From a marine gamma proteobacterium HTCC2089 (lineage in GTDB: Bacteria; Pseudomonadota; Gammaproteobacteria; Pseudomonadales; Azotimanducaceae), in the NCBI GenBank assembly GCA_905182905.1, contig CAJJDH010000025.1, forward strand, positions 1-64,000: a DNA stretch of 64,000 nt, read 5' to 3'. This document shows positions 15,315 through 18,820 of the stretch, in pieces; within the stretch, counting starts at the first letter, position 1, and each line of letters opens with the position of its first letter. The position numbers were made by a program, and so were the translations under genes. The notes beneath the pieces were generated by a model. The model saw nothing but the letters and a program-made list of their open reading frames with translations. It did no database searches and was not told the origin of the DNA.

Positions 15315-15434
15315 TTTAATTTTTCAGCCTCTATTTGTTGATCTTTTATAGCTCTGCCCAAACCTTAATGCACGTTTTCTTTCTGGGTGTCAGATTACAA
15401 AGTACAGGTTAGGATACGGTATTGGGAGAAACTT

Positions 15435-16205
15435 ATGAGTACAAAAATAGTACCTATTTCGGTACAACTTTATAGCGTTAGAGAGGCCTCTGCCGAGAAC
15501 TTTGATCAAGTACTGGATATTATCGCGCGACTTGGTTTTAAGGGCGTAGAACCTTTCCACCTCTTTGGCAAAAGCCCAGCTGATTTTAAAAATCAGGTAG
15601 AGGATCTAGGCATGGAGGTTTCTTCCACGCACTTTCCTTGGGTAAATCGCAACCCTGACATTGGCCGAGTAGCGGACATTGTTAAAGAGCTGGGACTCAA
15701 CCGCGTACCCGGTGGCTATGGTCCCGATGACTTCAAAGATATGGACGCCGTTAATCGCACCATAGAAACCACACAGGCTTTTGTTGATCAGCTCAAACCT
15801 TATGATCTGGCTTTATTCCTGCATAACCACTACTGGGAATTTAACGAGATCGAAGGCCGCCCTGGATATCATTATTTGCAAGATGCCATCCCAGAGCTGA
15901 CCTTTGAATTAGATACTTACTGGGCAGCCAATTTTGGCAACAACGACCCAGCAGCGGAATTGACCCGCATAAAACAGCGCACGCCACTATTGCACATTAA
16001 GGATGGCCCGCTTAAACCAGACCTCCCCCATGTAGCAGTGGGCTCCGGCGCAATGGACATTCCTAAGGTTTTTGCCGCAGCAGACCCTGAAGTTTTTGAA
16101 TGGGCGGTAGTTGAACTAGATGCATGTGCAACAGATATGCTCACGGCAATAGCACGCAGCTACAAATATTTAACGCAGAACGGATTGGCGCAAGGTAATG
16201 TCTAA
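15435..16205 (+). CDS. Sugar phosphate isomerase/epimerase family TIM barrel protein
   Basis: A 256-residue barrel of the xylose-isomerase-like family, smaller than its divergent neighbour. It begins VPISVQLYSVREASAENF, the usual opening of the group, and has FHLFG, LFLHNHYWEF, TFELDTYWA and HIKDG, which hold candidate metal ligands. The start at 15435 follows GGGAG; the earlier in-frame ATG lacks a site. It overlaps the aminotransferase gene by eight bases. Together the pair suggests isomerisation of a keto compound and its transamination. Confidence 0.85.
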   Translation: MSTKIVPISVQLYSVREASAENFDQVLDIIARLGFKGVEPFHLFGKSPADFKNQVEDLGMEVSSTHFPWVNRNPDIGRVADIVKELGLNRVPGGYGPDDFKDMDAVNRTIETTQAFVDQLKPYDLALFLHNHYWEFNEIEGRPGYHYLQDAIPELTFELDTYWAANFGNNDPAAELTRIKQRTPLLHIKDGPLKPDLPHVAVGSGAMDIPKVFAAADPEVFEWAVVELDACATDMLTAIARSYKYLTQNGLAQGNV

Positions 16206-17352
16206 AATAAAATACGATTTCGGTAGTGGTCGTTCAGACCCCGCAACATTTCCAGTAGCTGCCTTACAGGCCGCAGCCACTAAGGTCATTGAAGAACAGG
16301 CGGAAGCTCTAACTCAATATCCAGGGAACTTGGGCCACGAGGGTATGCGCATAGCCATGGCGGAACGCGAGGCAGATCGCGAAGGCCTAAGTATTGATCC
16401 AAACCATCTACTATTAACCAACGGTTCAATGCAGGGGGTAACTCTTACCGCTGAGGCATTGCAGGACAACCCTGGCGATACGGTATTGGTAGAAGAGTAC
16501 TGCTACCCAGGCACGCTCAGTGCTTACCGCAGCCTAAAATACGACATGGTGGGCATTCCTTTAGACGAGGGTGGTATGTGCCCTGATGCGGTGGAAGCTG
16601 CACTTGCAAAGTTAGATAAAGAAAAGCGCCTGCCGAAATTTATTTACACCATTAGCACTTATCAAAACCCAACAGGCTTTGTAATGCCCAAGGCTCGGCG
16701 CCTACAAATTATTGAGCTGGCCAAGCATTACAATGTGCCTATTGTGGAAGACAATTGTTATGCGGACGTACATTACGATGGCCCACTGGAACCTGCCTTC
16801 TATGCCTTGGACGAAGATCCAAATCAAATCTATCTTTGTTCTTTATCGAAAATTTTGGCCCCCGGGCTAAGGCTTGGTTATATCTATGCTCGCCCGCCAA
16901 TGCTGGAAAAAATCATGGCACGCAGACACGATGCCGGCAGTAATTATTTGGCAGCAGCCATCGCTGCAGAGTTCTATAAAGAAGGCATCCAAGCTCACGC
17001 CAAAGCCACTAACCCTGTACTTAAAGAAAAGCGCGACCTAACCATAGCCGGTCTTGAAAGTGAGCTAGGTGATATCTGTGTTTGGTCCGAACCAGTTGGC
17101 GGCCTATTTATTTGGGTGCGCATACCCGAAGACGTAGACAGAAAAGCGTTAAGAGATATGGCATTAGGCGAAGGGGTGAACTTCCTGCCTGGCCAGTCCT
17201 TCCACTACCAACGCAAAGACGTAGCCTACTTACGTTTAGCATTTGGTCACTTAACCTTAGAACAGATCAGCGCCGGCATTCCAATACTCGCTAAGTGCAT
17301 CCAAAGCTGTCGCGGTAGTAACGAGCGCAGAGACTTCGACAGTCTGTTTTAG
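16198..17352 (+). CDS. PLP-dependent aminotransferase, class I/II (2-aminoadipate/MocR-like)
   Basis: A 384-residue fold-type I aminotransferase. Family features are YPGNLGHEGMRIAMAERE, TNGSMQGV, YQNPTGF, VEDNCYAD and the lysine motif SLSKILAPGLRLGY, where Lys forms the Schiff base with PLP. The layout resembles the aminotransferase half of MocR proteins and 2-aminoadipate transaminases. It starts within the end of the isomerase gene, so the two are coupled. Amino donor and acceptor are unknown. Confidence 0.9.
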   Translation: MSKIKYDFGSGRSDPATFPVAALQAAATKVIEEQAEALTQYPGNLGHEGMRIAMAEREADREGLSIDPNHLLLTNGSMQGVTLTAEALQDNPGDTVLVEEYCYPGTLSAYRSLKYDMVGIPLDEGGMCPDAVEAALAKLDKEKRLPKFIYTISTYQNPTGFVMPKARRLQIIELAKHYNVPIVEDNCYADVHYDGPLEPAFYALDEDPNQIYLCSLSKILAPGLRLGYIYARPPMLEKIMARRHDAGSNYLAAAIAAEFYKEGIQAHAKATNPVLKEKRDLTIAGLESELGDICVWSEPVGGLFIWVRIPEDVDRKALRDMALGEGVNFLPGQSFHYQRKDVAYLRLAFGHLTLEQISAGIPILAKCIQSCRGSNERRDFDSLF

Positions 17353-17384
17353 ACCCTAATCATTGCTTGAAAAAAGGAACAATA

Positions 17385-17867
17385 ATGACAAACAAGCTTC
17401 AACCAGGGGATATGTTTCCAGACATTACCCTCAACACGATAGACGGCGGAGAGATCAATCTACCTGCTGATCTAGATAGTCCATTTACGGCAGTGCTATT
17501 TTATCGCGGCCATTGGTGACCTTATTGCCGCCGACTGTTAGCCGGCTATGAAGAGCGCCGTGAAGCGTTTGCAGCACAAGGGGTATCAATCATTGCAGCA
17601 TCGGTCGATTCCTTGGGGAAGACAACCGAGGTGGCAGCGCCACTGGCGTTCCCCGTAGCATTTGGTGTGACAAGAAGCCAAGGCGACAGTCTGGGTGCCT
17701 GGTGGGATGAAAGCCGAGACTTTATCCAACCCAGTGAATTCTTGCTGACAAAAAGTGGCAAGGTCATGGCTTCCACCTACAGCAATTCACCGGTAGGACG
17801 AATGGATTCTGCGGAAACCCTCACGCTCATTGAATACATCAATGCACAGCGAACAAAAAAGGCTTAG
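17385..17867 (+). CDS. Peroxiredoxin-like (AhpC/TSA) selenoprotein with in-frame TGA
   Basis: A 160-residue thioredoxin-fold protein if the TGA at 17517-17519 is read as selenocysteine (position 45). Before it the frame gives TAVLFYRGHW and after it PYCRRLLAGYEERREAF, so the site corresponds to the first Cys of the W-C-P-Y-C motif normal in this peroxiredoxin-like family, giving U-P-Y-C. The frame stays open for 115 further codons with family-like content (IIAASVDSLGK, FPVAFGV). AGGA lies upstream of the ATG. It would reduce peroxides or act as a thiol oxidoreductase. Selenium genes selA, selB and selC are not in the window. A genuine stop (pseudogene) or base error are the alternatives. Confidence 0.82.
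17517..17551 (+). promoter_or_regulatory. SECIS-like hairpin directly after the in-frame TGA
   Basis: The bases after TGA can fold: GCCG (17527-17530) pairs with CGGC (17543-17546), then after one mismatch a C-G pair closes an eight-base loop starting with G at 17533, about 14 bases from the TGA. Outside, TTAT (17522-17525) can pair with ATGA (17548-17551), allowing one G-U pair. Bacterial SECIS elements lie just there and carry a G at the start of the apical loop. Recognised by eye, not folded by program. Confidence 0.6.
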
Positions 17868-17876
17868 GGCAGATTT

Positions 17877-17902
17877 AGCTAGCAGCTGGCTAGCTGCTAG
17901 CT
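17877..17902. terminator. CTAG-rich perfect hairpin between convergent genes
   Basis: AGCTAGCAGCT (17877-17887) is followed by four bases and its exact complement AGCTGCTAGCT (17892-17902). The hairpin begins ten bases after the selenoprotein stop and overlaps the stop codon of the convergent desaturase. There is no T-run, so it may terminate weakly in both directions or protect transcript ends. Confidence 0.5.
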
Positions 17903-18820
17903 AGGTACCGCCAAAGCCAATATTGCCTTATAACCTCTCTGAATCTCCATCTGCGCCTCATAACCCTTGTCGATCAGCATTTGATGCGCATCTTTGAGTT
18001 TGTAGTGAGGACAATTAACCACCAAGTGATGTTCTAAGTGATACTGGACATTGTATGGGGCAATCAACGCGCGCTCCCACCAGCTTGCAATAGTTGTTCG
18101 CGTATTGCGTAAACGGTCATCGTTATCCGGTACTACTGCATGCTCACCAATATTTCGCAAGCGCACTACAAACCGATTCCAAGTCAGCGCGGGTACCCAC
18201 CACAATAAGAAGTACATATACCAAACACCTGCTGCTGCAAAACCCGCCAAAAAGACCAAATTGATAACAATATTCGGACCGATGCGTCGCCATGCGTTGG
18301 CTAGACGAGCACCTAGCGTATCTCCTCTAAACGCCGCGCGAACGATACGCCCATACTGATCCCAGCCAGTTTGCCCTGTAAGGTCGCGGATCACCTTGCG
18401 TCGAAACGAAGTCTTGGTAATTGGAAAAGGTTTCGACAACGCAAGATCCGGATCGTTTTCTTGCTGAGTATGCAAATGATGTTGCACATGATATTTGCGG
18501 TAAGTGTCGATTTTTTCATCGGTGAAAGGGCGGTTGAGAATCCATTCGCAGACCCAGTCATTGACCTTACGGTTAGCGTATAACGCGCCGTGGGCGCCAT
18601 CATGGGTGAGCACAAAAAGTCCTAGTTGCCGAGCGCCAACAACCATAATTGCCAGCAGTACTGTCAGCGGATTAGTCCAAACACTGGCAATAACCCACGC
18701 GCCTAAAATAACCCCCCAGCAATGGACAATAGCCAATGTACTACGCCAGCTGGAAACACTGCGTAAATAGGTTATTTCTGCCGACGAAAAGAAATCGCCT
18801 GGACGTTGCAAATCACTCAT
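17897..18820 (-). CDS. Membrane fatty acid desaturase
   Basis: A 307-residue membrane-bound di-iron desaturase or hydroxylase. The three histidine clusters are present: HDGAH at about residue 75, HVQHH at about 112 and EHHLV near 262, and hydrophobic segments flank them (VLLAIMVVGARQLGLFVL, VINLVFLAGFAAAG). It would introduce a double bond or hydroxyl into acyl chains in the inner membrane. It converges on the selenoprotein gene and is separated from the CoA transferase by 94 bases on the same strand. Confidence 0.9.
   Translation of the reverse strand: MSDLQRPGDFFSSAEITYLRSVSSWRSTLAIVHCWGVILGAWVIASVWTNPLTVLLAIMVVGARQLGLFVLTHDGAHGALYANRKVNDWVCEWILNRPFTDEKIDTYRKYHVQHHLHTQQENDPDLALSKPFPITKTSFRRKVIRDLTGQTGWDQYGRIVRAAFRGDTLGARLANAWRRIGPNIVINLVFLAGFAAAGVWYMYFLLWWVPALTWNRFVVRLRNIGEHAVVPDNDDRLRNTRTTIASWWERALIAPYNVQYHLEHHLVVNCPHYKLKDAHQMLIDKGYEAQMEIQRGYKAILALAVPS

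Follow-up and report, generated by a model that had tools for sequence, protein, structure and literature searches.

Two candidate SECIS hairpins, proximal and distal, in a peroxiredoxin-like UxxC selenoprotein gene of a marine gammaproteobacterium

Peroxiredoxin-like (Prx-like) selenoproteins with a UxxC motif have been described from bacteria, for instance the Prx-like 1 class of pfam00578, for which 225 sequences are known from the GOS data (PMC2398784), and the class also appears in PMC13188914. The protein class discussed here is therefore already known, and a sequence-only reading of the locus had rightly placed it among the UxxC Prx-like proteins of marine bacteria. Recognition of bacterial SECIS elements is described by a model that requires a spacing of 16-37 nt, although some elements do not fit (PMC13188914). 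What is new here is the presence of two SECIS versions, one proximal and one distal, in one selenoprotein family. No report of SECIS relocation was found in the literature searched, coverage of which was partial, and a search on selenoproteins in OM182, K189A and HTCC2143 yielded nothing.

The window, that is, the whole stretch of 64,000 nucleotides that was analysed, includes the following features:

16198-17352, + strand: aminotransferase-like gene (named from sequence alone), a conserved upstream neighbour that adjoins the homolog in 16 loci
17385-17867, + strand: predicted Sec-containing Prx-like gene, 160 amino acids, stop codon TAG (from the TGA-read translation, PF00578, TGA homologs and an AlphaFold2 model)
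17517-17519, + strand: TGA (UGA) codon predicted to be read as selenocysteine (Sec), the U of U-P-Y-C, residue 45 of 160 (from TGA homologs and Cys-type relatives)
17526-17528, + strand: TGC codon for the second Cys (C48) of UxxC, invariant in a 34-row alignment
17530-17546, + strand: putative proximal SECIS hairpin H1, GCCGACU-GUU-AGCCGGC, with one A.C mismatch (from conservation and pair changes)
17553-17570, + strand: distal hairpin H2, GAGCGC-CGUGAA-GCGUUU (from conservation in clade B)
17897-18820, - strand: convergent fatty-acid-desaturase-like gene (named from sequence alone), a conserved downstream neighbour that adjoins the homolog in 15 loci

The frame at 17385-17867 is interrupted by a single internal stop, the TGA at 17517, in the context LFYRGHW-U-PYCRRLL, and when this codon is read through, 115 further residues follow, as the sequence-only reading had stated. 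The same reading had warned that gene callers would start at 17613, and a listing of ORFs under the standard code does yield just an 84-amino acid ORF (17613-17867) here. The sequence AAAAAAGGAACAATA upstream of the AUG at 17385 is a plausible Shine-Dalgarno sequence. In comparisons of the window gene with its three nearest relatives, the region after the TGA has a dN of 0.07-0.10 and a dS of 1.6-2.0, giving a dN/dS of ~0.05, and thus the downstream part is translated and under selection. In the same comparisons, 13-15 of the 15-16 same-residue codons among the 17 that follow the TGA are identical, versus about half elsewhere. The genes of the region 15387-18820, comprising isomerase-like and aminotransferase-like genes, the Sec protein gene and the convergent desaturase-like gene, are kept together across many relatives.

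To collect homologs, an alignment of four of them was used as the query in a pattern-based scan that covered 84,980 species genomes. Among the best 80 of 360 confirmed matches, a non-random sample with identities of 50-86%, all 80 loci carry TGA at the codon equivalent to 17517, and no other internal stop was seen except for one late TGA in each of two loci. These best 80 of 360 include metagenome-assembled genomes (MAGs) of the K189A and OM182 clades, Pseudohongiella and the isolate HTCC2143, and some carry the label Myxococcota or Deltaproteobacteria, which may be due to binning errors. Each of four matches of >50% identity from a separate homolog search also has one TGA. In the nearest Cys-type relatives (~25-38% identity), the motif reads YRGxHCPxC or YRGxWCPxC and the Sec position is occupied by Cys in 26/26, so the in-frame TGA does stand where the first Cys of a W-C-P-Y-C motif had been expected, and alignment of the Prx-like homologs finds either TGA or Cys at this position. 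A scan of viral_contigs did not find a relative of the Sec Prx-like protein.

With the U entered as C, the protein matches PF00578 (AhpC/TSA) at 65.1 bits (cut-off 26). An AlphaFold2 model built with 34 homologs (pLDDT 92.6) has a peroxiredoxin fold in which residue 45 immediately precedes helix 46-57, with U45 at the N-terminal end of the active-site helix and C48 as its partner; its best PDB match is Bcp4 (3hjp, Z 21.4), with Prx4, BcpB and AhpE as further matches. When FYRGHWUPYC is set against the Prx TxxC motif, C48 appears to fall at the place of the peroxidatic Cys of TxxC peroxiredoxins and U45 at that of the Thr. Because U45 would replace this Thr while C48 takes the peroxidatic position, UxxC redox chemistry is favoured, and the protein is most likely a thiol/selenol redox enzyme, a reductase or peroxidase, that uses selenenyl-sulfide U-x-x-C chemistry.

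The genome that was searched (2.83 Mb, 94% complete) encodes SelA (467 bits), SelB (413 bits) and SelD (256 bits), with selA and selB adjacent on contig C113. The expectation that selA, selB, selC and selD lie elsewhere in the genome is thus borne out for all except selC, as a search of the assembly with a tRNA-Sec model returned ordinary tRNAs only, with no selC above the cut-off. In the nearest relative, G180, selB is followed by a dienelactone-hydrolase-like gene and then by tRNA-Sec (TCA anticodon, 71.4 bits). Contig C113 aligns to this block and breaks off within the final codons of the hydrolase gene, ~200 bases before the place of tRNA-Sec, and for this reason the absence of selC very probably represents a contig gap. 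Of the 58 relatives that were searched, about half have a tRNA-Sec above the cut-off, in many cases at the end of a contig, and contigs of several congeners stop near selC. The order selA-selB-hydrolase-selC could be assembled from two genomes (L019:2-4112 and L065:46-1634). SelD (L020:3452-5650, G000:C61) carries an oxidoreductase-like domain at its N-terminus, a fusion of the Ndh-SelD type reported in PMC2398784. In the proposed pathway, SelA and SelD would make Sec-tRNA-Sec, which SelB would carry to UGA 17517, with guidance from a SECIS hairpin that closely follows the codon in the same frame.

Counting offsets from the U of UGA as 0, H1 spans offsets 13-29, with the loop GUU at 17537-17539 (offsets 20-22), 17 nt after the UGA, and a stem of 4 bp, the A.C mismatch and 2 bp. 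In group A, defined as the 26 rows without the H2 core, the loop is GUU in 26/26, even where Leu-Leu becomes Gln-Leu, and the group A form, GUU with CGA CTG TTA, is present in the window gene and in each of its four closest relatives (5/5). Synonymous third-base changes are absent from codon 51, which lies in H1, and in group A the five columns of 51 with the least such change all fall within codons 49-56. At three pairs of the stem both sides have changed, which supports pairing.

Folding of the window sequence by itself is ambiguous. Folded alone, the H1 stretch (41-49 nt) reaches -8.1 kcal/mol in a register other than H1, no better than shuffled sequences (z +0.4), and the bare H1 register gives -6.2 kcal/mol versus -6.6 kcal/mol for the minimum-energy register, the 8-nt loop of which begins with G; the corresponding term of the SECIS model is a minimum free energy of -7.5 kcal/mol or lower. 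In longer contexts the pairing probability of the window H1 is low, and a clear fold into H1 plus H2 (0.96/0.95) is obtained only for the 48-nt stretch between +12 and +60. A fold test with synonymous recoding gave modest means of -1.1 (codons +3 to +12) and -0.75 (codons +9 to +18). As the minimum-energy fold of H1 alone carries no signal, it was excluded from the evidence, and the case for H1 as a real structure rests on comparative data, which indicate that the register favoured by evolution is 17530-17546 with the loop GUU rather than the minimum-energy register. Thus, the sequence-only reading was correct in placing a hairpin with a G at the loop start at SECIS distance, in that such a hairpin exists with GUU 17 nt after the UGA, but the minimum-energy register with its 8-nt loop is not the one that evolution seems to favour, and the unremarkable statistics of the isolated fold had been missed. 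H1 lies within the 16-37 nt spacing, has a G in the first two loop positions and has an upper stem within 4-16 bp, and is most likely the working SECIS in the window species.

A second conserved hairpin, H2, had also been missed. H2 spans offsets 36-53, with its loop at 17559-17564 (offsets 42-47), 39 nt after the UGA and hence 2 nt beyond the published range of 16-37 nt; like H1, it has a G in the first two loop positions (CGUGAA, with CGT invariant). It is conserved in clade B, comprising 44 rows defined on the protein tree, one version of which included the residues of the H2 codons. Here CGC CGT xxx GCG is invariant in 44/44, the loop is CGUGNN, and codons 58, 59 and 61 (CGC, CGT and GCG) show no synonymous changes in the 44 rows, as compared with 11 for the median column. 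Since CGT lies in the loop, pairing alone does not account for its conservation. Cells at H2 are paired in 99.7% of cases, and the H2 core is also found in six rows outside clade B. The clade B counts are not motif-chosen, whereas circularity affects the z-scores of codons 58, 59 and 61, since the motif itself had served to pick the initial group B. The H2 motif has a single match in the window genome, and it occurs once per genome in five genomes and not at all in five others; this count of 0 or 1 match per genome led to the rejection of H2 as a repeat or uptake motif of genome-wide occurrence.

That UGA 17517 is decoded as Sec has to be weighed against two other readings of an in-frame TGA. 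The gene could be a Cys peroxiredoxin in decay, with the TGA as a genuine nonsense codon or an error of sequencing, as might be supposed from the lack of selC in the assembly and from Cys homologs at ~35% identity; however, the same TGA is common to all of the best 80 of 360 homologs, which come from different records, and purifying selection continues past it in a genome that has sel genes, making decay or error the least credible of all explanations. The missing selC would equally suit decoding of UGA as Trp or Cys, through an altered genetic code or an unusual tRNA. Against this, eight long open frames in the window end in TGA, SelA, SelB and SelD are encoded, the nearest relative G180 has a standard tRNA-Sec with a UCA anticodon, and SECIS-like conservation lies downstream of the UGA, such that reassignment is very improbable, if a shade less so than decay. 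The gene at 17385-17867 is accordingly assigned to the Prx-like (AhpC/TSA, UxxC) selenoproteins, with Sec at UGA 17517, at a probability of roughly 0.95.

A more substantial question is whether H1 alone serves as SECIS in every member, with the conservation of H2 reflecting some other RNA or DNA signal or a codon constraint. Two observations are in keeping with such a role for H1: its stem is mostly retained in clade B, where 91.9% of cells are paired, and its spacing, in contrast to that of H2, agrees with the published range (PMC13188914). Yet in 21/44 clade B rows the first H1 loop positions lack a G, versus 0/26 in group A, and neither the silence of codons 58, 59 and 61 at synonymous sites, including a CGT in an unpaired loop, nor the restriction of the H2 motif to one copy per genome in five genomes, with none in the other five, is what an exclusive role for H1 would predict. 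An H1-only family is thus unlikely. H2 would probably be the SECIS in clade B, with its CGUG loop, and the H1 stem of this sister clade is possibly a spacer that brings the H2 loop nearer the ribosome. For the window species, use of H2 as SECIS is conceivable but somewhat doubtful.

Comparison of the best 80 of 360 homologs suggests that the SECIS hairpin may have moved along the gene during evolution, with the window gene carrying both the old and the new element. Of the window gene and the four relatives closest to it, 4/5 have H2, and in the fifth (L094) it is degraded. In a tree built from syntenic neighbours and the Sec protein, with the trait columns left out and rooted on L138, which has H1 only, the H2-bearing L095, L096 and L108 split off, and nine H2 genes form the sister group of the window group. 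This tree is compatible with H2 having been gained once and H1 having then decayed in two lines, and equally with H1 having been regained in the window group. A single clade of all H2-bearing rows is not rejected (p-AU 0.34), and the tree offered too few pairs for independent-pair tests. The full scenario, in which the SECIS moved from 17 to 39 nt in one lineage, the old hairpin became a spacer stem, the window gene represents the state with both elements, and SelB accepts a spacing of more than 37 nt, is judged slightly better than an even bet.

Other selenoproteins in the window genome and its relatives provide a context for these hairpins. A second selenoprotein in the window genome (L185, G000:C65:22385-23215, minus strand) has FYRGFW-U-PPC in a 374-amino acid open frame, with TGA in nearly all relatives found; its hairpin, GCCUCG-AGUUA-CGAGGC, places GUU at the same offset as the H1 loop, and relatives keep a hairpin of the same kind. 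In a third family (WUPYCVAEL), UCGCCG-AGUUR-CGGCGA is present in 12/13 members, the exception being that of the congener G040, a clade B genome (L172, G040:C71:5927-6388), where the proximal hairpin is lost and GAGCUUC-GGUC-GGAGCUC lies 40 nt after the UGA. This gene looks like a second instance of the same outward shift, albeit a single case, and its distal hairpin could be partly a product of its Glu-Leu codons. A genome-wide shift in SelB spacing was ruled out, as the UPPC selenoprotein of G040 retains a proximal SECIS, and any shift would therefore have proceeded gene by gene. AhpC/TSA-like frames with an in-frame TGA in UPAC or UPYC were also seen in L088 (G134:C14), L090 (G138:C40) and L091 (G158:C45), and in the latter two CAGCU-CGUGC-AGCUG lies 20 nt after the UGA, with a loop like that of H2.

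The selenoprotein itself adds one case to a known class, the members of which come out shortened from ordinary gene callers. As the SECIS model confines the loop to the first 37 nt, clade B genes that lack a proximal loop G could fall outside its criteria. The family offers a natural series of proximal only, both, and distal dominant hairpins, by which the spacing rule and SECIS turnover are open to direct test.

In comparison with known systems, H1 agrees with the bacterial SECIS model (PMC13188914, Fig 2) in having G first in the loop, a 17-nt spacing and a short GC stem, whereas H2 differs from it by the 39-nt spacing and by the conserved stem upstream. In fold, the protein is similar to the Bcp/PrxQ and AhpE peroxiredoxins (3hjp and 1xxu), with Z of ~19-21 across ~150 residues at an identity of 14-17%. 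It has its Pfam domain in common with the Sec-peroxiredoxins (PF00578, TxxU); these have Sec at the peroxidatic position and Thr three residues before it, whereas the UPYC of the window protein would place Sec at the Thr position of TxxC and Cys at the peroxidatic place, and so lacks TxxU. The closest likeness is to the Prx-like 1 and Prx-like thiol:disulfide oxidoreductase selenoproteins, which share the AhpC/TSA domain, the UxxC motif, the occurrence in marine bacteria and the existence of Cys homologs, with membership assigned by Pfam domain and motif rather than by direct sequence comparison; within Prx-like UxxC, the window gene belongs to a subgroup distinguished by TGA in every one of its best 80 of 360 matches.
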